Below, piece by piece: positions 4,515-47,511 of a stretch of DNA of 47,511 nt. The DNA lies in the NCBI GenBank assembly GCA_023664685.1, contig JAMPFC010000012.1:1-47511 (forward strand). The letters run 5' to 3'. The notes below the pieces were generated by a model. That model ran no database searches. It was given only the letters and a program-made list of their open reading frames with translations, and was not told the origin of the DNA. The stretch's first letter is position 1; the number at the start of each line of letters is the position of its first letter. The DNA comes from Roseburia sp. (lineage in GTDB: Bacteria > Bacillota > Clostridia > Lachnospirales > Lachnospiraceae). Both the position numbers and the translations under genes were made by a program.

Positions 4515-5243
4515 ATGTCAGGACATTCTAAATTTGCTAATATTAAGCATAAAAAGGAAAAGAACGATGCCAAAAAGGGAAAAATATTTACTGTGATCGG
4601 CAGAGAAATCGCTGTGGCAGTAAAAGAAGGAGGCCCGGATCCTGCGAACAACAGCAAGCTTCGTGATGTGATCGCAAAGGCAAAGGCAAATAATATGCCA
4701 AACGATACCATCGACCGGGGCATTAAAAAGGCAGCAGGAAATGTAGACGCTGTAAATTACGTGAATATTACATATGAAGGATATGGCCCGAATGGTACTG
4801 CGATCATTGTCGAAGCGCTTACCGACAACAAAAACCGTACTGCATCTAATGTGCGGAATGCATTTACAAAAGGAAACGGAAATGTTGGAACGACTGGCTG
4901 TGTCTCCTATATGTTTGATACAAAAGGGCAGATCATCGTCGATAAAGAGGAGTATGAGACCGATGCCGACGAATTTATGATGCTTGCTCTCGATGCCGGT
5001 GCAGAGGACTTTGTGGAAGAAGAGGACAGCTATGAAATCCTTACGACTCCGGATGATTTCAGTCAGGTAAGGGAAGCTCTGGAAAAAGAAAATGTGCCGA
5101 TGGCTCAGGCCGAGGTTACGATGCTTCCGCAGACATATGTGGAACTTACCGACGAAAACGATGTGAAAATGTTTCAGCGCATCATGGATCTTTTGGATGA
5201 GGACGATGACGTCCAAGCTGTATACCACAACGTAGATGAATAA
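4515..5243 (+). CDS. YebC/PmpR family DNA-binding or translation-linked regulator
   Basis: A full-length 242-residue YebC family protein. It begins with the family hallmark M-S-G-H-S-K-(W/F)-A-N-I and continues with K-K[11 protein letters not shown], then R-G-I-K-K-A near 70, and the acidic C-terminal third. Members act as transcriptional regulators (PmpR) and, for some, in relieving ribosome stalling; which applies here cannot be told from sequence. The AGGAGGAATCATAATC leader gives an unambiguous ATG start. It stands between argR and recU, without sharing their pathways. Confidence 0.93.
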
Positions 5244-6633: not shown

Positions 6634-6702
6634 CAGGCCATGTTCTGGCGGAGGCGATCGGATCAGAATCCGGTTGTTTGCCGGGGTGTGGCCTGATTTT
6701 TT
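6634..6702 (+). terminator. Rho-independent terminator after the spore protein gene
   Basis: CAGGCCA (6634-6640) pairs with TGGCCTG (6689-6695) and is followed by ATTTTTT. The roughly 50-base interior can fold into its own CCGG-closed hairpin, so the terminator has an unusually long structured head. Confidence 0.75.
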
Positions 6703-6754
6703 GTGCAGCTCTTTACTTTGGTGTGAATTTTGGTGTGAAAAATGGATTTAATGG

Positions 6755-6784
6755 TTGCGGAAAGGAAGCAGGTATTGGTATAAT
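6755..6784 (+). promoter_or_regulatory. Sigma-A type promoter for the NUDIX gene
   Basis: TTGCGG (6755-6760), an 18-base spacer and a perfect TATAAT (6779-6784) lie about 60 bases before the NUDIX start, after the spore-gene terminator. Confidence 0.6.
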
Positions 6785-7486: not shown

Positions 7487-7553
7487 TGGAAATACAGGAG
7501 AATATGGTGTAAAATGAAAGTACAAAAGTGATTTGAAAGGAAGAATAAAAATT

Positions 7554-9293
7554 ATGTCGAAGTTAAATATTGATCAGCAAACCATTAAAGAATTATTTTC
7601 AAACAAAAGATCTGATTTTTTGATTCCAGATTATCAGAGACCATATGCATGGGGAGAGACAGAGTGTCAAACTTTGTGGGATGATGTATTTTCGTTTGCT
7701 TTTCCAGAAAATGATTATACAAAATTTAATAGTGATGAGGACGAATATTTTTTAGGACCAATTGTTACCTTTAAAAATAATAATAAATTAGAAATTATTG
7801 ATGGGCAGCAAAGGTTAACAACATTTATGCTTATGTTAAGAGCATTTTATTCAAAATTTGGGAATATGAAAGATCCTAATGCAACTAGAACAAGTGAAGA
7901 TATAGCCAAATGTATATGGAAAACAGATGAGTTTGGAAAGCCAGATAAGGATAGACTTAAAATAGATTCAGAAGTATCTACTGATGAAGATAAAAAGGAA
8001 TTTTTATCCATTTTGAAAACAGGAAGTGTAGATGCAGCACAAAAGAGTCGTTATGCAAAAGTATACCGTTTTTTTCAGGAAAAAATTAATGGTTTCCTTC
8101 AGCAATATCCATCATATTTTTCATATTTGCCTACAAGGATATTAAATAATTGTATCTTGCTTCCAATTGAAGCAGAATCACAGGACACTGCGTTAAGGAT
8201 ATTTTCAACATTGAATGATAGAGGTAAACCGTTATCAGATACAGATATATTTAAAGCTAAATTTTATAAGTTTTATTCGGACCAAGGGAAAACAGAAGAA
8301 TTTATTAAGAGATGGGAAAATTTAGAAGTTGGATGCGGAGAGATTTTTTCTGTTTCGTCAGGGTCTCCTATGGACGAGTTGTTTACTAGATATATGTACT
8401 ATGAAAGAGCAAAGCAGGGAATAAGATTGACGACCACAGAAGCGTTGCGTAAGTTTTATGAGAAGAATGAGTATGAGATTTTGAAACGTAACGAAACATT
8501 AAGGAATTTAGAGGATTTGCTGCAGTTTTGGGAGCGTGTATCAAATCAAGATGATGACGCTTTCTCAGATAAAGTGCTTCGTCGGTTAGCTGTCCTGAAT
8601 TATGCACCAAATGGAATGTGGACATATCTTGTTTCTGTATATTTTATGCAATATAGGGATCAAGAGAATTTATTAGATGACGATGCTTTTTTTGATTTTT
8701 TAAATAAAATTACTGCCTTTATTTGGATGTATGCGTTTGTGCGTCCGGGGGTTAATGCACTCAGAAGTCCGGTGTATCCAGAAATGATAGAAATAGTGAG
8801 TAACAGAGTAGTTGATTTTGAGGAGTATAGATTTGATGTTGAGGTTGTGCGCAATGCGATTGAAAACTATGTATTTACCAATGGGAGGCCGATAACAAAA
8901 TCTATGTTAGCATGGTGGGCTTACAATAATAAGAAGCAGGAGTTGATTTCATTAGATATGCCTCTTGAGATTGAGCATATTTTCCCACGTAAGCGTCAGG
9001 AAAATGAAGGCGGTTTTATAGAGGAAAGCAATTTGGAATCATTAGGAAATAAAGTTCTTTTAGAGAAGAGTATTAATGTGCGGGCGACGGATTACCGTTT
9101 TGAAGATAAGAAGAAATATTATAAAGGATTTACAAATAGCAAAGGAAAATACAAAGAAGGAACTAAGAATGTAGAACTTCTGGAGATGGCTGAAAGTCAA
9201 GCAGATTTCCAAGAGGCAGATATTGTTAATCGTAAAAAAGAGATTATTGATGAATTTCTTAGGTTTTTAGAATTAAATCATCTTATAAAATGA
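7554..9293 (+). CDS. Fused GmrSD-type restriction protein (DUF262-DUF1524)
   Basis: A 579-residue protein uniting both halves of the GmrSD type IV restriction family. The N-terminal DUF262 (ParB/sulfiredoxin-fold NTPase) has I-P-D-Y-Q-R-P-Y-A-W at about 24-33, the I-I-D-G-Q-Q-R-L-T-T motif near 81-90, and F-S-T-L-N-D-R-G-K-P-L-S near 220. The C-terminal DUF1524 HNH-type nuclease has I-E-H-I-F-P-R near 472-478 and the G-N-K-V-L-L ... N motif after it. Known members cut phage DNA with modified (glucosylated hydroxymethyl) cytosines; many other DUF262/DUF1524 proteins have different or unknown targets. ATG 7554 is set by AAAGGAAG at 7536-7543. Codon use and base content are visibly richer in A+T than in the flanking core genes, which suggests acquisition. 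Confidence 0.88.
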   Translation: MSKLNIDQQTIKELFSNKRSDFLIPDYQRPYAWGETECQTLWDDVFSFAFPENDYTKFNSDEDEYFLGPIVTFKNNNKLEIIDGQQRLTTFMLMLRAFYSKFGNMKDPNATRTSEDIAKCIWKTDEFGKPDKDRLKIDSEVSTDEDKKEFLSILKTGSVDAAQKSRYAKVYRFFQEKINGFLQQYPSYFSYLPTRILNNCILLPIEAESQDTALRIFSTLNDRGKPLSDTDIFKAKFYKFYSDQGKTEEFIKRWENLEVGCGEIFSVSSGSPMDELFTRYMYYERAKQGIRLTTTEALRKFYEKNEYEILKRNETLRNLEDLLQFWERVSNQDDDAFSDKVLRRLAVLNYAPNGMWTYLVSVYFMQYRDQENLLDDDAFFDFLNKITAFIWMYAFVRPGVNALRSPVYPEMIEIVSNRVVDFEEYRFDVEVVRNAIENYVFTNGRPITKSMLAWWAYNNKKQELISLDMPLEIEHIFPRKRQENEGGFIEESNLESLGNKVLLEKSINVRATDYRFEDKKKYYKGFTNSKGKYKEGTKNVELLEMAESQADFQEADIVNRKKEIIDEFLRFLELNHLIK

Positions 9294-38734: not shown

Positions 38735-40159
38735 TTGATCCGGATTAAGATTCAATCAATAAAAGAAATTAGTGATTATAAAAAACTGGTACAGCATGTT
38801 CCGGCTCATTTAATAAATAAAGATATTATTGAGTGCTTGAGCAAATATGTAGGAACAAAATGTGATACGATCAAGGTTGAATATCCATATTATGACAGCG
38901 ATTACCTGAGTACTTATTATGAGCATTATTCTCAAAAATTTAGAAAATATGACAAAGCTTGCTGTCGATTGCATTTTGAGAAAGAGGATGAATATTATGG
39001 CTATGTTACATTAAGACCGATTATCAATGATAAAAAATTGGGAAAAACATATTTTTCTCCGCAGTTACTGGTAGAATCAGAGGCTTATTTAATGATCAGT
39101 AATTATACGGCACATGTATATGGGCAATCATTTGAAATTGAGTGTTTTCCATGGAAGAGGCAGCAAACGGATATTTCTGTATGTGCACATACAGCAATGT
39201 GGACAGTTATGCGTTACTTTGGAAACAAGTTTAAAAATTATGCAGATATTACAATTGGAGATATTATTGACAGGGTTGAAAATGATTGGGGGAGAAAAAC
39301 CCCATCAAGAGGATTAGATCCTGTTCAAATATCAGATGTATTTAAACAATATGATTTAAATCCATTGATATTAGGTGGAGAGAAGAGAACGGATTATTTG
39401 TTTGTTGATGAGATTATGGCATATGTAGAATCAGGGCTACCAATGGTTGGTTTTCTGAATGCTCCAGAGCATGCTATTTCAATTATTGGACATGGACAGA
39501 TAAGTTATGAGTTTTTAGATAACCCTAAGATGTTAGATCAGCTTATAGATCGAGAAACTGGTGTGATTCCTCATGCTAGACTTATAAAGTCATTGTATGT
39601 AATGGATGACAGATTTTTTCCATATATGGAAATGCCGGTTGATGTGCCAACAAGCAAAAACAAGCTAGATTACGGATTGAATCAGTTATCTTATGCGGTA
39701 GTGCCTTTATATAGTAGAATGCAGTTGACGTATAGTGATGTTTATTCCCGTTTAACTACATGGATCAAAGCAGGAGAATTAAATTGGGAGGAGCAAAAAG
39801 TTTGCAGGATATATATCACCTCTGCCAATTCATTAAAAAGAGAGGTTTTTAAGAGTGAGAGCATGGCAACAGAGTTAAAGGAGATATTACTTACTTTGTC
39901 TATGCCCAAATTCATATGGTGTGTGGATTTGGCAGGAATTGATAATTATAAAAAACATCTTACTTCGGGAAGAATTATTATAGATACGACAAGTGCGACT
40001 TTAGATGAGGAACCGTGGATATTACGTCATGATTCTGAAATTATACAGTATAGAGATTTTGACCATGACCCCGATACTATTTTTGAAAAAAAGGTTATGA
40101 TACCACCATATGAGTTATATCAAAATAATTTGCGATATTACAGAGGGAGTGAGAAATGA
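38735..40159 (+). CDS. Putative papain/C39-like cysteine peptidase, family not recognised
   Basis: A 474-residue protein I do not recognise as a named family. Residues 144-161 read Q-T-D-I-S-V-C-A-H-T-A-M-W-T-V-M-R-Y, with Gln144 and Cys150 spaced as Q-x5-C at the head of a helix, as in C39/papain-like peptidases. A histidine lies in P-E-H-A-I-S-I-I-G-H-G (His247) and aspartates in Y-V-M-D-D-R (291-292), giving a plausible Gln-Cys-His-Asp site. No signal peptide or membrane helix is seen, so it is probably cytosolic. The start is TTG 38735 behind TGGAGGT. The A+T-rich style differs from the neighbours and suggests transfer. It overlaps the next gene by four bases. Confidence 0.6.
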   Translation: MIRIKIQSIKEISDYKKLVQHVPAHLINKDIIECLSKYVGTKCDTIKVEYPYYDSDYLSTYYEHYSQKFRKYDKACCRLHFEKEDEYYGYVTLRPIINDKKLGKTYFSPQLLVESEAYLMISNYTAHVYGQSFEIECFPWKRQQTDISVCAHTAMWTVMRYFGNKFKNYADITIGDIIDRVENDWGRKTPSRGLDPVQISDVFKQYDLNPLILGGEKRTDYLFVDEIMAYVESGLPMVGFLNAPEHAISIIGHGQISYEFLDNPKMLDQLIDRETGVIPHARLIKSLYVMDDRFFPYMEMPVDVPTSKNKLDYGLNQLSYAVVPLYSRMQLTYSDVYSRLTTWIKAGELNWEEQKVCRIYITSANSLKREVFKSESMATELKEILLTLSMPKFIWCVDLAGIDNYKKHLTSGRIIIDTTSATLDEEPWILRHDSEIIQYRDFDHDPDTIFEKKVMIPPYELYQNNLRYYRGSEK

Positions 40160-40731
40160 TGGGATATATTGCACCGGAGTATCTGGAGATAGAACGCAGA
40201 CTGAAACCATTTATTTGTGAACATGGATTAGATGAAGTGACTGTTAAAAGTTTAATACGTGGAAGTGTAGAAATAGTGGAATCGGAACTTCCAACGGCAT
40301 CCATAGCTATTTTAGATGCTGATGATTTTGAAAAAAGTGCAAGTATAAAGTTTGGAAATATTAGATTTAACGTTGAATTTGGTTTGAAGTCTCTTTTTTC
40401 TATGAAAGAGGTGTGCAGTCAAGAAGGGCTTTGGCTTGTCTTGGTTTTGATAAAGACAATGCTATTTTTTATAAAGGAAGTGAAAAAGCCTTTCGGACAA
40501 ATTGAAGCGATAGTACTTTTTTGTGTATACCGGTTACGGAATGCGACAGTAGAGCAAATTCTTGCTTACTACACTGAAGACAATTTTGAAAAAACGGTTA
40601 CTGATATGGAATTAGATGACAAATGTGTTCTCGAAGCTTTAGACAAACTTATGGAGCTTGGGACGATTGATATGAATAATGGAAAGTATTTTGTTAAAGA
40701 GGTTGTTATTGTGAGAAATAATGTTTTGTAA
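40156..40731 (+). CDS. Hypothetical protein coupled to the peptidase-like gene
   Basis: A 191-residue protein of unknown function. The N-terminal two thirds look like an alpha/beta domain (residues 1-95), and the stretch L-V-L-V-L-I-K-T-M-L-F-F-I-K near 95-108 is strongly hydrophobic. The C-terminal 75 residues (Q-I-E-A-I-V-L-F-C-V-Y onward, ending G-T-I-D-M-N-N-G-K-Y-F-V-K) have the helix-helix-helix-wing pattern of a winged-helix domain. The ATGA overlap with the peptidase-like gene indicates translational coupling and so a shared role. A second ATG follows directly and may be used instead. Confidence 0.7.
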   Translation: MMGYIAPEYLEIERRLKPFICEHGLDEVTVKSLIRGSVEIVESELPTASIAILDADDFEKSASIKFGNIRFNVEFGLKSLFSMKEVCSQEGLWLVLVLIKTMLFFIKEVKKPFGQIEAIVLFCVYRLRNATVEQILAYYTEDNFEKTVTDMELDDKCVLEALDKLMELGTIDMNNGKYFVKEVVIVRNNVL

Positions 40732-40762
40732 AAGGGAAAATGTGATGTGATGCAAAAAATGC

Positions 40763-40791
40763 TTGCATAATTAGCCATAATTGCATATAAT
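40763..40791 (+). promoter_or_regulatory. Sigma-A type promoter for the 59-residue protein
   Basis: TTGCAT (40763-40768), a 17-base spacer and a perfect TATAAT (40786-40791), 35 bases before the ATG at 40826. Confidence 0.7.
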
Positions 40792-40825
40792 ATTGGTAGA
40801 TTTTGATTGGAAAGTAGGAAGGAAT

Positions 40826-41005
40826 ATGGCAAGGATAATTTTAAGTCAGGCTGCACAAGCGGGGATTCAGAATGTGACAAAGAAAAAGATAAATGATAGT
40901 GCATCCTATAAAAAACTGGTGGAGGAAGCAAATCAAAAAATTGAGGATAGCAGGCATCGTTATGCGAAGACATATAAAAAGGCTACAACCTATTTGGCAC
41001 ATTAA
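40826..41005 (+). CDS. Small basic hypothetical protein (59 aa)
   Basis: The protein begins M-A-R-I-I-L-S-Q-A-A-Q-A-G and continues with a long charged helix (Y-K-K-L-V-E-E-A-N-Q-K-I-E-D-S-R) ending in T-Y-L-A-H. It is lysine/arginine rich and likely a single coiled-coil helix. AGGAAGG sits seven bases before the ATG, and a strong promoter lies just upstream, so it is probably expressed independently of the peptidase pair. A terminator-like hairpin follows. Function unknown; a small regulator or antitoxin-like role is conceivable but unsupported. Confidence 0.6.
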   Translation: MARIILSQAAQAGIQNVTKKKINDSASYKKLVEEANQKIEDSRHRYAKTYKKATTYLAH

Positions 41006-41052
41006 CTATGTGTTAAAATTTTAGTGATGGAGAAAATGAAATAAGGCAGCAG

Positions 41053-41085
41053 ATCAACAGCCGAGGGAAAGTGGCTGTTGATTTT
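41053..41085 (+). terminator. Hairpin after the 59-residue gene
   Basis: ATCAACAGCC (41053-41062) and GGCTGTTGAT (41073-41082) pair perfectly over ten bases around a ten-base loop, followed by TTTAGTTG. The weak T run keeps confidence moderate. The remainder of 41086-41353 holds a probable promoter and no gene I can support. Confidence 0.6.
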
Positions 41086-41187
41086 AGTTGTGCAATTTTT
41101 TATCTGATGTGCCTTCGAGGGATAGTCAACTGATACGTTAAAGTAATCCTATTTTCGTACTGGGAATAGGTGTTTTGTAAAAACCTA

Positions 41188-41217
41188 TAGACAACACGCA
41201 CCAAAAGGGTATATACT
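41188..41217 (+). promoter_or_regulatory. Candidate promoter for the retroelement operon
   Basis: TAGACA (41188-41193), an 18-base spacer and TATACT (41212-41217), about 135 bases upstream of avd. It is the best match in this gap. One transcript from here could carry avd, TR, RT and target. Confidence 0.45.
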
Positions 41218-41353
41218 AAAATACGACATAAAACGACAAGTGAAGACTTTGAAATGTCAGTCTCAAAAAAGCAGTCATCGTTTTGATACAAACTAACTTA
41301 TTTGCTTTTTACCTGCAGTTCAGATAGAATGGGGAATGCGGGAGGATGAGATC

Positions 41354-41746
41354 ATGAAGAGACGTGCGGAAGATGAGCTGACGGTTATAACAAGGGCCAA
41401 GGAGCTGTGCGAATATATTTTGACAATTACCGACAAGTCACCTAAGAAGTTCCGTTTTACACTGGTAAGCAGACTGCAGAACTATTCTCTGTCTGTCATT
41501 GAACATTTATACCGGGCAAACAATGTTTTTGTTGCTAATAGCGACAAACTGGAGCGGTATGAAAAAAGGCTTGAATTTCAGCATGAGGCAATGACAGAAC
41601 TCAGACTGCTGGCTTATCTGAGCATGATCGCCAGAGAGTCGCAATGCATTCTTCCCAAACAACAGTCGCAGATTTCATCCAAAATCATAGAGACGCAGAA
41701 ACTTTTGTATGCGTGGATAAAAAGTGACGGAGCAAGAGCGAAATAA
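41354..41746 (+). CDS. avd: DGR accessory variability determinant (Avd, four-helix bundle)
   Basis: A 130-residue, all-helical protein. The layout matches bacterial Avd/four-helix-bundle proteins: a first helix with A-K-E-L-C-E-Y-I-L-T-I-T, the conserved K-S-P-K-K-F-R-F-T-L-V turn, S-R-L-Q-N-Y-S-L-S-V-I-E-H-L-Y-R-A-N in helix 2, then a long basic/hydrophobic third helix and a last one. Avd forms a basic pentameric barrel that binds the RT and template RNA and is needed for mutagenic cDNA synthesis. ATG 41354 has GGGAGG eight bases upstream; ATG 41336 is six codons earlier. It sits 37 bases before TR, as in other DGRs. Confidence 0.9.
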   Translation: MKRRAEDELTVITRAKELCEYILTITDKSPKKFRFTLVSRLQNYSLSVIEHLYRANNVFVANSDKLERYEKRLEFQHEAMTELRLLAYLSMIARESQCILPKQQSQISSKIIETQKLLYAWIKSDGARAK

Positions 41747-41783
41747 GATCCTATGGATTTTATCTGGGGATATGGTTGAGAAT

Positions 41784-41901
41784 TTGGTGGCTGCGGTCGC
41801 CGGGCAACAATAGTAATAACGCATCCAATGTGAATAACAATGGAAATGTAAACAAGAATGGTAACAATGTCAACAATAATAATGTCGCGGCGCGTCCCGA
41901 T
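41784..41901 (+). repeat. DGR template repeat (TR)
   Basis: 118 bases aligned without gaps to the VR at 43808-43925. It starts TTGGTGGCTGCGGTCGCCGG and ends in the G+C block GTCGCGGCGCGTCCCGAT. Read in the target's frame, it is dominated by AAC/AAT (Asn) codons, as in DGR templates where both first and second codon positions are meant to be mutated. It contains 41 adenines from the first TGG to the final GAT. It lies between avd and RT and is not itself part of a gene. Confidence 0.96.
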
Positions 41902-41933
41902 CTGCATTTACTTTGCCTGAAACCATTTCTAAT

Positions 41934-42076
41934 GCAGACATGGTCTGTGCACAAATGCAAAGGAACCAGATTCCCTCCCTGAAACGGGAAAATACATGCT
42001 GTCAGAAGATGGGACGAGAAGATTCTTTTTCCAGATTTGAGGAGAATGTATGGAAATGATATGTTCTCCCTGACAG
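41934..42076 (+). ncRNA. Structured TR-RT spacer (probable part of the template RNA)
   Basis: Downstream of TR the transcript can form CAGAC-ATG-GTCTG (41935-41947), TTCCC/GGGAA (41971-41975 with 41986-41990), and an extended stem made of CTGTCAG/CTGACAG (41999-42005 with 42070-42076) enclosing GGAGAA/TTCTCC (42041-42046 with 42064-42069). In the studied Bordetella phage DGR the spacer 3' of TR is required for template priming by RT-Avd. By position this region is its counterpart; the pairing is from inspection only. Confidence 0.5.
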
Positions 42077-42108
42077 TAATCCATTACTTGTATTGTAAAG
42101 GAAATAAA

Positions 42109-43164
42109 ATGGACGAATACGAAAAGATCTACTGTTTTGAGAATTTGTATCAGGCACACAAGATGGCACGGAGAGGAAAGCAGACAAAGAAAGAAGTAAT
42201 TTCTTATGAAATGAGATTGTCAGAAAATATTGAAAAACTGCGTTATCATCTGAAAAATCACACCTATCAGGTTCGGGGATATCGAAAATTTTTGATCCAT
42301 GATCCGAAAAAAAGAGAAATTCAGGCACTATCTTATGGAGACCGGATTGTTCAGCACAGTTTATGTGATAATGTTCTTGGGCCATATTTGGAGCGGCACT
42401 TAATTTATGACAACAGCGCATGCCGGAAGGAAAAGGGAACACATTTCGCGGTCAACCGGCTGACTGGATTTATGAGAAAATATTATAAGAAATATGGTAT
42501 GGAGGGTTATATATTAAAATGCGATATAAGGAAGTATTTTAATTCGATTGATCATACTGTACTAAAGGAGAAAATAAACCGGATGGGTTTGTCTGAGGAT
42601 GTTAAATGGCTGTTAGAGGGGATTGTAGACAGTTATGAATGCCAACCGGGAAAAGGACTGCCGATGGGAAACCAGACAAGCCAGTGGTTTGCCCTTTATT
42701 ATCTGGATGGTTTGGATCGGTTGGTTAAGGAGAAGCTTGGAATCCAGTATTATTCCAGATATATGGATGATATGATTTTGATTCACCAAGACAAGGCGTA
42801 TTTAAAAGAATGTCTGGAGAAAATGCGTTCTTATCTGGAGATGGAATTGAAATTAGAATTTAATGAGAAAACACAAATCCATGCGATCCGGCAGGGAGTA
42901 GATTATTTGGGATTCCATTTTTATATTACGGAGACCGGAAAAGTCATAAGAAAGTTGAGGCAGTCGGGGAAAAAGCGTTTGAAGAGAAAACTCAGGCATT
43001 ACCGGCATGCTTATGCAGAGGGAAAAATTGAACTGGAAGCAGTCAGCCAGAGTGTGGCAAGTTATAAAGGACACTTAAAATATGCCCATGCTTATCGGCT
43101 GCAAAAAAATATATGGAATCAGTTTGTTCTAAAACGAATCAACAAGGAGGAAGGAACATCATGA
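42109..43164 (+). CDS. Diversity-generating retroelement reverse transcriptase
   Basis: A 351-residue RT with the standard blocks: Q-A-L-S-Y-G-D-R-I-V-Q-H at the fingers, the first catalytic aspartate in L-K-C-D-I-R-K-Y-F-N-S-I-D (Asp139), the DGR-specific G-L-P-M-G-N-Q-T-S-Q-W (Q189-Q192, in place of the retroviral/group II Q-G-x-x-x-S-P) and the active site S-R-Y-M-D-D-M (218-221), followed by a basic thumb (K-K-R-L-K-R-K-L-R-H-Y-R). It lacks the maturase and endonuclease domains of group II intron RTs. ATG 42109 has AAAGGAAA seven bases upstream. The stop overlaps the target gene start (ATGA), indicating translational coupling. Confidence 0.96.
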   Translation: MDEYEKIYCFENLYQAHKMARRGKQTKKEVISYEMRLSENIEKLRYHLKNHTYQVRGYRKFLIHDPKKREIQALSYGDRIVQHSLCDNVLGPYLERHLIYDNSACRKEKGTHFAVNRLTGFMRKYYKKYGMEGYILKCDIRKYFNSIDHTVLKEKINRMGLSEDVKWLLEGIVDSYECQPGKGLPMGNQTSQWFALYYLDGLDRLVKEKLGIQYYSRYMDDMILIHQDKAYLKECLEKMRSYLEMELKLEFNEKTQIHAIRQGVDYLGFHFYITETGKVIRKLRQSGKKRLKRKLRHYRHAYAEGKIELEAVSQSVASYKGHLKYAHAYRLQKNIWNQFVLKRINKEEGTS

Positions 43165-46100
43165 CAAAAGAACAAAGAAACAATATCAAAAGGAGACCGC
43201 TGGCGCTTATATTGATCATTGCCCTGTGCATTGGCATCCTGCCGATAAATCAGACACCGGCAAGTAAAGCAGCTTCCCGCGCCGGTTATGGTCTGAGCAA
43301 CCCATCTACGTCCAGTGACGGTGTCACGACATGGGACTGCGTCTGGTTTGGAAATTATCCACAGAGCGACGCAACAGGGGCGACGAAAGAGCCGATTAAG
43401 TGGCGTGTCCTCTCAGTAAATGGGGATGATGCGTTCTTGTTGGCGGATCAAAACCTAGACGTGCAGAGATATAATGATACATATACAAGCATCACATGGG
43501 AAACTTGTACAATGCGGTCATGGCTGAATAGCAGTTTTCTAAACAAAGCTTTTACTGCCTCCGAACAGGCGGCGATCAAAAACACGACAGTAGTCAATGA
43601 GGATAATTCATCTTATGGTACAGAAGGCGGAAATAATACGACAGATAAAGTGTACCTTCTCTCGCTTAGTGAGGTGCTGAATCCTTCGTATGGGTTTACC
43701 TCGACAACGGGTTCCACAGATACAAGAAAAGCGGTAAATACCGCCTATGTGGCAGCGGGGGGAGAGATAAACTCGTCTTATATGAGTAGTGCCGGGAGTA
43801 CAGATTATTGGTGGCTGCGGTCGCCGGGCCACTATAGTGATAACGCATCCCATGTGGATAGCGATGGGGATGTGATCGAGAATGGTAACAGTGTCGACTA
43901 TGATCATGTCGCGGCGCGTCCCGCTTTGCATTTGAATCTATCATCTACCTCAAGCTGGTCATACGCCGGTAAAGTGACCTCGAAAGGGGGAGAGAACGTA
44001 ACAGGGACTCCTGTGCCAGTCCAAACTCCGACCCAGAGCGGTGGAGAAATTCTATTTCCGGCATTTTCTATAGCACCAACTCCCACAATGACTCCAGAAC
44101 CACCAAAAAACAAAGCGGCGAGGAATGTTGCTGCGGCACTTCCAGACATGGGGAATCTTGGAAATGCTGAGCTGAAAGGGCCGGAACTTTCCATCGGTGG
44201 GAATACGTTCAACCTTTTTAAGATGGATATGGAGATGTCGCTCCCGATCTTTAATGATGTGGAATATAACATTGATCTGGCTGGGCATACAGCAGAAGTA
44301 CTGATCGGGATCGACGGAGCAGCAGAGGCAGAAGTAAAGAGTGACCCGGACGATCCTTACTGGAGGGAGTCTTATCAGCAGGTCAAATCCCTTGTCAAAG
44401 CATGTGGCGGAAAAGTTGATACGACGAAACTGTGGAACCGGTTTTCAAAACTAAGGGGAAAACTGAAAAAAATAGAAGGAAGCGCGGCATTCAAAGTAAA
44501 GGGAAATGCAGCAGGATATCTGAAACTACAATTGGATGAAGAGTATAATCCGGTCGGTCTCATCGAGGGCGGCGTCACAGCGGGGCTTGAGGCATCTGGG
44601 AAAGTAAAAGCCCCCCTCTGGTGGATCATCTATTCTGAGTTTGGTGTAGGCGGTTCTGTCGATGGCAGTTTTTGCCTGAAAATGGGAGAAAGCAAGACCA
44701 TTTGCCCGGAAGGTGAGTTAGGGCTTGCAATCAAGCCGAGCGTGGCATTGGGAGCAGATGCTGTCGTTGTTGATATCAAGGGAGGCATCGAAGGAGAGAT
44801 TGGCGGCGGGGTGAAGATTCCGTGGCAGTCGTTCCAAGAATCGGTCAACGCCTACCTGACCGGAAAGGCATTTATCCAAGTGGACACGATCGTTCCGGGG
44901 CTGAGTGGTGGTTATGATTATGAATTTCCTAAACTGGAACTATACCCTGATCTTGGGCAAATCACCAAGCGCTCCCTTGATGTCCAGTATACACGGAGTG
45001 AAAAGCCGACGAAACAGATGGTGGGGGAGATAAAAAAATACGCTTCCGGCGCGGTGGATACAGCAGAGGATGCACTTGTTTATGAAAACGCAAAGCCCGA
45101 GATGGTAAAACTTCCGGACGGAAGAATCCTGATGACATATCTGGATGATAAGACAGAAAATGCGAAGGGACAGGCAAAGCTCATGTACCGTCTGTACAAC
45201 GCAGGAACATGGACAGAAGAAAAGCCGGTCAATTCTAGTGCAAATCTTGATATGGCAGGGAAACTGTGTGTTCATGATGGAACTGCCTATATTATTTATG
45301 AGAACAGCGGCCGCACTGTGACCGAAAACATGACCCAGAAAGAAATACTGGATGGGATGGAGTTATATATTGCGGCATTCGATGCATCAAAAAATTCTTT
45401 TGGAACTCCGCAGAGGATCGGAGTGACTTTGGAAGATACATGGAAATATGGCTATGATTTCGCAGGGGACGGTGAAGATTTGTATGCGGTATGGGCAGAA
45501 AACAGTGATGGTGATGTTTTTCTGGAACATGGAAGCACAGAACTGTACCGGAGCCGCCTGACAGCAGACGGATGGGGAGCGAAAGAGAAACTACATTCCG
45601 AGCCGGGAGCAGTACAGGAATTTTGTGTACAGGTAAAAGATGGAAATACCCGGTTCTTTTATAGTAAGAACAAAAAGCTGTATGTAGACGGATGGGCAGT
45701 AAGTCTTTCGAGAAAGAACGTGGACAGTGTCAAAGTATTTGATGGAACTGTTTATTTTAGGGTAGATGGGCAGTTATATTCGTGGGACGAAGAAACGGAA
45801 GAAGCTGTACGGTCTGGTATCGCTTGTACATCTTCTTACCGGGTTATGGATGGAACTGTTTACTGGACGGAACAGGATAATTTTAAAAGCGAAGTCTGGC
45901 GGTCGGTATTGCCAAAGAGTGGAAGCGTATCCACTGATGTTCCGGTAAAGGTGACAAATGAGGGCGGATATATCGGGAGTTTTTGCCTGAGTAGCGGGAC
46001 TGGCGCAGAGCCGGTTATGGCTTATACACTACAGCGTGTCGAAGAGATGACAAGCGGAGAAAATCCATATGGTCTCACCCTCTTAATGTTTAGGGGCAAT

Positions 46101-47177
46101 CTGTCACGCAGTCAAGGTGAGGTGACAAATGTTGCTTATGATATTCTTAGTTTCAAGCCGGGAGAGGAAAATGAAGTCACTGTTACGATTGCAAATACCG
46201 GAACGACAGAGTTAAATCATATCATCGTAACGATTCGTGATAAAAATGGAAATACTCTGCACGAGGAAGAGGTTTCTGTATCGCTGCAGCCGGGAGAGAC
46301 GAGGGATGCGGTGCTTTCCGTGGAGATTCCGGAAGATTTTGCAGAAGGGGATATTATAGCGTCAGTACGTGCGGATGAACCATTTGTAAAGGGAGAAGAG
46401 GCACAGTATGAGGCAGAATTGCAGACCTGCATGGCAGATCTTGAACTCAGGGAAAAGGATTCTGACACAGTCATCATAAAAAATAAAGCGGAAGACATTG
46501 CGCAAAATGTGACCATTTTTGTAAGAGATCAAGACGAGACCGGAACACTTCTTATGGAAAAGACAGTGGGAACTCTGGAAGCCGGAGAGCAGACAGAGAT
46601 TTCGGTAAATGGGTTGTGGAAGAATACAACAGCAGATGCACAGACCGGGCAAAACTATCTGTATTGCGAAGCATCACAGGAAGAAGACGAATACGAACTT
46701 TGGAACAACAGCCTGCGGCTTGCGAAAGAAAGCAGATACATTTCTTCAGGCGCAACCGGAACGGTTCCTCCTACCGGAACGCCGGTATTGCCCGGGAACC
46801 AGCATCCGGCTGTGGCAGATGCCGCTTCCTCCGGAACAGGAACATCGAGCCAGACTGCGTCCTCCGGATCATCGAAGACGTCAGGTTCGTATAAAGCCCC
46901 GGCAAAAGTAACCGCCCTCAAGCTAAAGGCAAAGAAAAAAGCCCTTCAGGTGAGTTGGAAAAAGGTATCCGGTGCCTCCGGCTACCAGATTTGGTACAGC
47001 ACGTCAAAGAAGTTCAAGAAAAAGAGCGCAAAGACCGTGAAGAAACCAAAACTTACGATCAAAAAACTCAAATCCGGAAAGACTTACTTTGTAAAAGTCC
47101 GTGCTTATACGCTAAAGAATGGGAAAAAGGTGTATGGGGCTTGGAGTAAGACCATGAAGAAAAAAGTGAAAAAATAA
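43161..47177 (+). CDS. DGR target: exported multidomain protein with a variable DUF6273/C-lectin-like domain
   Basis: A 1338-residue protein. A basic N-region and hydrophobic core (about 10-30) end at an A-S-K-A|A-S-R-type site near 37, a signal peptide. Residues 50-262 form a DUF6273-like domain (V-W-F-G-N-Y-P-Q, P-I-K-W-R-V-L, T-M-R-S-W-L-N-S-S-F-L, W-W-L-R-S-P-G, R-P-A-L-H-L), which holds the VR at residues 217-255. A P/T-rich linker (about 270-320), long middle region with repeated beta-strand and glycine-rich patterns, a CARDB/DUF11-like segment (about 985-1075), a T/S/G-rich linker and an FN3-type domain (about 1245-1338) follow. No LPxTG or C-terminal membrane helix is seen, so its attachment to the surface is unexplained. 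AAGGAGGAAGG precedes ATG 43161. Confidence 0.92.
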   Translation: MTKEQRNNIKRRPLALILIIALCIGILPINQTPASKAASRAGYGLSNPSTSSDGVTTWDCVWFGNYPQSDATGATKEPIKWRVLSVNGDDAFLLADQNLDVQRYNDTYTSITWETCTMRSWLNSSFLNKAFTASEQAAIKNTTVVNEDNSSYGTEGGNNTTDKVYLLSLSEVLNPSYGFTSTTGSTDTRKAVNTAYVAAGGEINSSYMSSAGSTDYWWLRSPGHYSDNASHVDSDGDVIENGNSVDYDHVAARPALHLNLSSTSSWSYAGKVTSKGGENVTGTPVPVQTPTQSGGEILFPAFSIAPTPTMTPEPPKNKAARNVAAALPDMGNLGNAELKGPELSIGGNTFNLFKMDMEMSLPIFNDVEYNIDLAGHTAEVLIGIDGAAEAEVKSDPDDPYWRESYQQVKSLVKACGGKVDTTKLWNRFSKLRGKLKKIEGSAAFKVKGNAAGYLKLQLDEEYNPVGLIEGGVTAGLEASGKVKAPLWWIIYSEFGVGGSVDGSFCLKMGESKTICPEGELGLAIKPSVALGADAVVVDIKGGIEGEIGGGVKIPWQSFQESVNAYLTGKAFIQVDTIVPGLSGGYDYEFPKLELYPDLGQITKRSLDVQYTRSEKPTKQMVGEIKKYASGAVDTAEDALVYENAKPEMVKLPDGRILMTYLDDKTENAKGQAKLMYRLYNAGTWTEEKPVNSSANLDMAGKLCVHDGTAYIIYENSGRTVTENMTQKEILDGMELYIAAFDASKNSFGTPQRIGVTLEDTWKYGYDFAGDGEDLYAVWAENSDGDVFLEHGSTELYRSRLTADGWGAKEKLHSEPGAVQEFCVQVKDGNTRFFYSKNKKLYVDGWAVSLSRKNVDSVKVFDGTVYFRVDGQLYSWDEETEEAVRSGIACTSSYRVMDGTVYWTEQDNFKSEVWRSVLPKSGSVSTDVPVKVTNEGGYIGSFCLSSGTGAEPVMAYTLQRVEEMTSGENPYGLTLLMFRGNLSRSQGEVTNVAYDILSFKPGEENEVTVTIANTGTTELNHIIVTIRDKNGNTLHEEEVSVSLQPGETRDAVLSVEIPEDFAEGDIIASVRADEPFVKGEEAQYEAELQTCMADLELREKDSDTVIIKNKAEDIAQNVTIFVRDQDETGTLLMEKTVGTLEAGEQTEISVNGLWKNTTADAQTGQNYLYCEASQEEDEYELWNNSLRLAKESRYISSGATGTVPPTGTPVLPGNQHPAVADAASSGTGTSSQTASSGSSKTSGSYKAPAKVTALKLKAKKKALQVSWKKVSGASGYQIWYSTSKKFKKKSAKTVKKPKLTIKKLKSGKTYFVKVRAYTLKNGKKVYGAWSKTMKKKVKK
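43808..43925 (+). repeat. DGR variable repeat (VR), residues 217-255 of the target
   Basis: Aligned base by base with TR (offset 2024) it shows 18 substitutions, all at TR adenines, giving 16 changed residues (224, 225, 227, 231, 233, 234, 235, 237, 239, 240, 244, 246, 247, 248, 249, 255) and two silent changes (236, 238). Substituted bases are 11 G, 4 C and 3 T. The next base difference, at 43926 (C in TR, T in VR), is the first outside an adenine and marks the boundary. Confidence 0.96.
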
Positions 47178-47204
47178 GGGCATGTTTTTATATGTCAGAT
47201 TCCG

Positions 47205-47238
47205 GGCTGCGAAGTGTATTTTGGCATTTCGCAGCCTT
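47205..47238 (+). terminator. Terminator after the DGR target gene
   Basis: GGCTGCGAAGTG (47205-47216) pairs with CATTTCGCAGCC (47225-47236), one G-T pair and an 8-base loop, then TTGGTATGTT. The hairpin is strong but the T run is weak. Confidence 0.65.
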
Positions 47239-47286
47239 GGTATGTTAGTGGCGTGAAAACCTTGGAAAAAAATTTGCATTTTTTTG

Positions 47287-47491
47287 TTTACAAACCATTC
47301 TTTTTGTAGTATACTCTCTACTATAAAGCATTTATTGTTGCTTTATGTTTCTGAAAATAGATCAGAAAGCACATTCGTGCATGTATTGAAATCCCATAAA
47401 ACGAAGATTAAGTTCAAGTGTTGTCGGGTAAAATCAAGTTTTTTATCTTATCCTCAAAAATGCTTGACTTATCTACATCAAATAGTATAAT
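47287..47491 (+). promoter_or_regulatory. Tandem promoters in the gene-free right end
   Basis: TTTACA (47287-47292), 17 bases, TATACT (47310-47315), then further on TTGACT (47464-47469), 16 bases, TATAAT (47486-47491). An AAAGCA/TGCTTT hairpin lies between them. AGGAAGTGG at 47499-47507 looks like a ribosome site, so the gene they serve probably begins just beyond the window. The remainder of 47239-47511 shows no convincing gene. Confidence 0.55.
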
Positions 47492-47511
47492 AAAGTTAGG
47501 AAGTGGATATT

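Follow-up and report, generated by a model that had tools for sequence, protein, structure and literature searches.

A chromosomal Avd-RT-TR cassette of Roseburia sp. that probably diversifies exported-looking DUF6273 proteins in cis and in trans

The window analysed here is a 47,511-nt stretch of Roseburia sp. DNA (GCA_023664685.1, contig JAMPFC010000012.1, positions 1 to 47,511), taken from a draft genome of 131 contigs. The initial annotation had read avd, a template repeat (TR), a reverse transcriptase (RT) gene and a target gene bearing a variable repeat (VR), all on the plus strand, as a diversity-generating retroelement (DGR). This architecture was borne out by family matches and by the repeat pair, as was the overlap of the RT and target genes. 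The features are as follows.

41336..41746, + strand: avd-like accessory gene (Pfam bAvd, PHROG Avd)
41784..41909, + strand: TR (repeat search, A-specific mismatches)
41890..42108, + strand: 3′ end of the TR with the spacer to the RT gene, RNA predicted to be strongly structured (minimum free energy, MFE, versus shuffles)
41900..41902, + strand: IMH*-like marker in the TR (TR GATCTG versus VR GCTTTG)
42109..43164, + strand: RT gene, 351 amino acids (aa) (RVT_1, PHROG)
43161..47177, + strand: cis target gene, 1338 aa, its start codon (ATG, 43161) overlapping the stop codon of the RT gene (ATGA)
43161..43271, + strand: signal-peptide-like stretch with an ASKA-A site (by eye)
43428..43937, + strand: DUF6273 domain, aa 90-259, C-type-lectin-like by relationship (Pfam PF19789, 1.7e-30)
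43808..43933, + strand: VR, aa 216-258 of the cis target (mismatches at TR A)
43908..43933, + strand: IMH-like coding region, VAARPALHL (TR/VR comparison)
46155..46358, + strand: NPCBM_assoc/CARDB-like domain near aa 1000 (Pfam, 3.1e-6 and 4.5e-5)
46902..47114, + strand: Lys-rich fn3 module (Pfam)

The avd-like ORF encodes 136 aa from 41336, or 130 aa (pI 9.5) from the second ATG at 41354, the start used in the initial annotation. The profile searches that had been proposed there for Avd and for a DGR RT matched both proteins, in Pfam and again in PHROG. Avd hits bAvd over the cut-off (1.1e-10) and the PHROG ‘Avd protein of DGR’ (3.2e-19), whilst its match to NCBIfam Avd (3.1e-11) reaches 43.5 of 80 bits, well under the curated cut-off; among the sequences of solved structures it has no relative by sequence. 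The RT frame contains no internal stop, is open from a TTG at 42037, and matches RVT_1 (Pfam, 9.4e-20) and the PHROG reverse transcriptase (3.4e-118). Its closest solved chain by sequence is 8ub7_A, labelled reverse transcriptase (3.3e-41), which we take to be the BPP-1 DGR enzyme; the next-best solved relatives, group II intron RTs, are far behind (2.5e-12). The RT carries YMDD, and MGNQTSQ at the place of the SQ motif, with M where the DGR motif (I/V/L)GxxxSQ (PMC3521204) has I/V/L. The stretch from 41890 to 42108 folds with an MFE of -62.7 (z = -3.98; 1/200 shuffles as stable), which agrees with a published account of a structured spacer in BPP-1 (PMC12875486). Rfam gave no match over 40700-44200.

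No phage genes were seen around the cassette, as had been reported, a statement that covers part of the neighbourhood, namely 10 larger ORFs plus the pair of genes that precedes avd. Eight of these 10 ORFs have Pfam matches and two have none; the families include DXP synthase, YebC, GmrSD, carboxyltransferase, LytR-CpsA-Psr, YfhO and Fe-hydrogenase. A chromosomal setting of the DGR is supported. The GmrSD-type restriction endonuclease gene lies at 7533-9293 of the window. The two genes upstream of avd overlap each other (38735-40731; 474 and 191 aa) and belong to no Pfam or NCBIfam family, the 474-aa product showing by eye a Cys...His pattern that recalls C39-like peptidases. We consider it extremely unlikely that the cassette is a domesticated phage element whose targets were once prophage decoration proteins. 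The DUF6273 part of the target does match a PHROG Hoc-like head decoration family (1.7e-12), and DUF6273 proteins are described as DGR targets in Faecalibacterium prophages (PMC11792537) and as tentaclins (PMC10743442). Against this, a scan of IMG/VR gave no relative of the target and three of the RT, whose best segments are 33-37% identical, whilst of 50,697 GenBank phage records one gave a match to the stretch from avd to the target, covering 7% of it. In any case, such a history would bear on the origin of the cassette and not on its present function.

The cis target is apparently exported, judging by its signal-peptide-like N-terminus. The C-terminal FN3-like module that had been noted is present (fn3, aa 1248-1318, E 1.8e-6, Pfam). 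The variable face, however, had been paired with that module, and this part of the annotation does not hold: the VR instead forms the last part of the DUF6273 domain, at aa 216-258, and 1080 aa follow it. By relationship, the fold around the VR would be that of a C-type lectin. A DUF6273 profile built from nine members matches the solved chain 9qa6_A, labelled IgA protease (8.7e-12); from this label we take it to be the IgA protease of two published papers. In the parts of those papers that were available, the domain is dispensable for cleavage. The match says nothing on IgA binding. The last 108 aa of the target have a pI of 10.7. Matches to its last 130 aa occur at 21 places in the genome, its own place counted, one of them an 809-aa protein on another contig (C43) with a signal-like start. 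This shared tail may be a module that serves surface attachment or export.

Repeats were searched for blindly over 41000-47511, and the TR/VR pair (126 nt, 85%) alone exceeded 30 nt. TR and cis VR differ at 19/126 positions, and 18 of the 19 are TR adenines, which occupy 42/126 positions (hypergeometric P = 1.9e-9). Read in the frame of the target, the TR holds 17 AAY codons, and an AAG codon is the only one able to become a stop. Up to the 3′ marker all 17 changes in the cis VR fall at adenines. Closest to the 3′ end lie two changes (A to C at 41900 and C to T at 41902) that look like a fixed marker. Among the six best VRs, five read GCTTTG and the sixth, C124a, reads GCATTG, against GATCTG in the TR. 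This site presumably acts as IMH versus IMH*, which would place cDNA integration upstream of the marker. Repeats were compared over the TR core upstream of it (41784-41899; 116 nt, 40 A and 76 non-A) and over the full repeat. The hypergeometric A-bias was dropped as sole proof of a VR and identity at non-A positions used instead, since the bias is not diagnostic alone and P values as small as 2e-6 are reached by RT-less relatives (no RT match at E 1e-40).

Besides the TR and the cis VR, a search of the genome with the TR found seven stretches at E ≤ 3.3e-4, all on contigs other than that of the cassette (C33): one on C43, two on C55, one on C37, one on C73 and two on C124. The claim that the system is complete within 5.9 kb thus stood in part, the cassette being real and the system larger, with VRs of the same TR carried by paralogs on other contigs. 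Over the core, C33, C43 and C55a have no changes at the 76 non-A positions, against 17, 22 and 22 changes, respectively, at the 40 adenines; all 61 changes in these three VRs are at TR adenines. C55b and C37a have 4 and 6 core non-A changes. Over the full repeat the non-A mismatches number 1/84 in C33, 1/84 in C43, 2/84 in C55a, 5/84 in C55b, 7/84 in C37a and 8/80 in C124a. As controls we took one locus from each of eight RT-less genomes of the genus (L111-L118), of which L118 was not homologous and was dropped. The remaining seven DUF6273 stretches have 13-22/84 non-A mismatches, that is, 74-85% of the non-A bases are kept. Compared with the best control, P is 0.0068 for C55b, 0.041 for C37a and 0.11 for C124a, the last falling to 0.0087 when the control mean is used in place of the maximum. 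From these comparisons C33, C43 and C55a are clear VRs of the window TR, C55b a likely one, C37a a probable one and C124a a possible one. We do not count weaker stretches (C73, 12/83; C124b, 17/84; C86, on a further contig, 25/84; C37b, 25/81 non-A mismatches) among the VRs of the window TR.

C33 and C43 are identical at all 84 non-A positions of the VR and at 19/42 A positions, whereas their flanks are 78% (upstream) and 75% (downstream) identical with gaps left out; the flanks of C55a differ by 27-45% from those of C33. Duplication alone cannot produce VRs whose non-A bases are identical while their flanks have diverged, whereas repeated rewriting from one TR can. C43 and C55a agree with the TR at all core non-A sites, besides the fixed 3′ marker, and this is the test of a trans-acting DGR. 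Taken together, the core identity of C33, C43 and C55a and the divergence of the C33 and C43 flanks indicate retrohoming in trans. C55a has one more C to T change at its 3′ end and a 2-nt insertion in the VR that shifts the frame, and the shifted VR (L023, 4317-4444) lies in an apparent tandem DUF6273 gene. The frameshift may be an assembly error; in principle it could also be transient, since homing rewrites the VR. The genes around the remote targets look like housekeeping genes (ribosomal protein L19, HisA, aconitase and ScpA/ScpB, named by eye), and contigs of the 131-contig draft could be misbinned.

An alternative that we regard as unlikely is that the remote VRs are fossils of earlier cassette duplications at which homing has ended, and that only the cis cassette works. 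The frameshift of C55a would fit this, as would the decay gradient formed by the non-A mismatches of C73, C124b, C86 and C37b. However, a duplicate as old as the flanks suggest would have gathered non-A changes, yet C43 and C55a have 0/76 in the core although their flanks differ from those of C33 by 22-25% and 27-45%, respectively. Moreover, searching the draft genome with the RT returned a single match, the cassette's own, and no second copy or remnant at E 0.001 or better; a second RT could be missing from the 131-contig draft. The DUF6273 genes could also be ordinary paralogs with loops under selection, their VR likeness reflecting protein constraint or plain gene conversion. Among the 39 genomes of the genus, own genome included, DUF6273 occurs in 37 and the RT, at E 1e-40, in five; the same residue places vary where there is no RT, and mismatches are A-enriched there too. 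Nevertheless, three VRs have no core non-A changes, compared with the 74-85% of non-A bases kept in the seven RT-less relatives, and plain conversion would not alter adenines and leave the other bases untouched. We regard the paralog reading as refuted for C33, C43 and C55a; it stands for C73, C124b, C86 and C37b; as an account of the whole we hold it to be very unlikely.

In the remote targets about 160 (C43), 170 (C55b) and 380 (C37a) residues follow the VR, as calculated from coordinates, and these VRs are thus not C-terminal. Behind DUF6273 no family was recognised in the C43 protein, whilst the C55b protein has fn3 and the C37 protein a second DUF6273 and Big_2 (Pfam). Among relatives, the cis target of a sister species (G022) is 1654 aa long and carries two VRs, in which 12/12 and 16/16 mismatches to the 83 nt of TR left are at A (12/12 and 15/15 in the BLAST alignments). 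In this genome a deletion has joined the TR directly to the RT gene (L052, 7946-8033), and the RT is without about its first 30 residues; the copy is apparently either broken or misassembled. TR/VR pairs on C52 of G035 are at background level. Given the fusion in G022 and the background-level pairs in G035, it would seem that the DGR decays in relatives or that their assemblies are faulty. More distant DGRs were seen in two other genomes. One (L040 of G036, 4546-4655 and 6649-6758) has an internal VR with 314 aa after it and 9/10 mismatches at A, and two (L041 and L042 of G037) have C-terminal VRs with 14/14 and 16/16 mismatches at A. Several DGR lineages appear to be present within the one genus.

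More widely, 62 loci were examined, of which 34 have a TR/VR pair and 28 have none (L038 and L053, both without a pair, have identical RTs and were both counted). Twenty-nine could be classed, 22 as N-terminal (at least 100 aa after the VR) and seven as C-terminal, with five, including L104, unclassed; these labels are noisy, L076 and L084 having identical RTs and different classes. In a tree of 53 RTs the loci with N-terminal VRs do not form one clade, and the starred branches force at least three changes. At four loci (L070, 9084-11237; L080, 9132-11351; L085, 9050-11131; L089, 2702-5020) the targets are about 690-770 aa long with the VR near the N-terminus. An AAA_5 ATPase domain lies behind the VR in these four of the nine targets scanned, and each target is preceded by an RT relative (42-46% identity in the best segment). 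They are possibly a class of DGR-diversified sensor ATPases in gut and rumen Bacilli and Clostridia.

Guo et al. proposed a hairpin or cruciform shortly after the VR as a conserved requirement (PMC3240598), and in BPP-1 loss of the hairpin impairs homing without abolishing it (PMC12875486). After the window VR we could not find a BPP-1-type hairpin (190/200 shuffles at least as good). After the genome's own six VRs the longest perfect stem is 4-6 bp, in no case better than 51/300 shuffles and never of at least 7 bp, in a search for perfect stems that leaves imperfect structure possible. The same test detected GC-rich stems of 7-8 bp after the VRs of L041, L104 and L105, and is therefore able to see them. 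Counting near-identical loci separately and taking L104 as C-terminal, 10 or fewer of 200 shuffles were as good for 6/24 N-terminal and 6/10 C-terminal VRs, and stems of at least 7 bp followed 5/24 and 4/10, respectively. Some N-terminal VRs thus do have a hairpin. In C33 the bases at and beyond the 3′ end of the VR encode RPALHLNLSS. GCTTTGCATTT, or near variants of it, are present in RT-less relatives too, and this motif may be older than its use by the DGR or a relic of lost DGRs. It is this coding motif that would be recognised. Tentatively, and with somewhat more doubt than belief, we suggest that recognition needs only the conserved DUF6273 coding motif VAARPALHL, free of any hairpin, making the system a genome-wide diversifier of one lectin-like family. 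If so, any paralog that retains the VAARPALHL codons could receive the cDNA, and a mutable module would be possible at any position in a protein.

In summary, the reading that we favour, and think probable, is that a single chromosomal Avd-RT-TR unit diversifies an exported-looking DUF6273 family in cis and in trans. TR RNA would be reverse transcribed with errors at adenines, and the cDNA would replace the VR that lies in the lectin-like domain, both in the adjoining target and in its paralogs elsewhere in the genome. The sequence recognised at the 3′ end would be part of the codons for the conserved motif RPALHL; being inside the gene, it would free the VR from the gene end and allow different C-terminal modules to follow. 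Homing may still be active, and the DUF6273 targets are presumably exported and held at the surface. We infer that the diversified face binds a ligand, which may be host- or competitor-facing as the initial annotation proposed. Such a system suggests a way for a gut bacterium to vary a whole set of exported lectin-like proteins together. Moreover, the system makes directly testable which sequence really marks a DGR target.

Multi-target DGRs and N-terminal DUF6273 VRs have each been published already. Trans and multi-VR DGRs are listed in DiGReF (PMC3521204), multiple VRs per TR are described as common (PMC6642488), and DUF6273 is recorded as a phage DGR target (PMC11792537) and, in a table of phage genes, beside an RT gene (PMC13432834). 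What is new is the combination of trans multi-targeting, an N-terminal VR and no detectable hairpin; in the portions of the literature on DUF6273 and DGRs that were compared, we found no bacterial chromosomal DUF6273 family served in trans. In the survey of Roux et al., as far as its text was available, a C-terminal VR is near-universal but not defining and is explained by noncoding recognition elements; the cis VR, at aa 216-258 of 1338, departs from this norm. Group G3 DGRs, enriched in Firmicutes, also have a VR location unlike that of BPP-1 (PMC6642488), and this change is shared here, whilst a dispersed DUF6273 family is not described in the parts of that paper compared. With BPP-1 the cassette shares the avd-TR-RT order, adenine mutagenesis, IMH/IMH* asymmetry and the structured spacer (PMC3240598, PMC12875486). 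However, in the sections of those papers used, the BPP-1 VR is at the 3′ end of the gene with a hairpin downstream, whereas in the Roseburia cassette the target gene comes after the RT gene and has an N-terminal VR behind which we found no hairpin. The TvpA DGR of Treponema denticola has one TR and one RT for two to seven targets, the extra ones remote (PMC4891356). As in the account of that system available to us, no phage genes were found beside the cassette, and remote targets, here C-type-lectin-like by sequence relationship, would be served; the targets are of DUF6273 type rather than FGE-sulfatase type, with large and differing C-terminal parts after the VR. In Thiohalocapsa PB-PSB1 trans activity was inferred from remote VRs that match the TR at non-A sites (PMC10907252). 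The likeness extends to matches at all non-A sites and to targets with several VRs, although the Thiohalocapsa targets are described as putative conflict-system sensors with population data and ours are exported-looking proteins. Tentaclins, as described in the part of PMC10743442 consulted, likewise have Ig/Fn3 modules behind an N-terminal DUF6273 C-lec domain that contains the VR, and long tentaclin-like proteins occur in bacteria too. Tentaclins themselves, however, serve phages as receptor-binding proteins and have an anchor consensus at the C-terminus, whereas the target here is chromosomal, is 1338 aa long and is one of several loci per TR.
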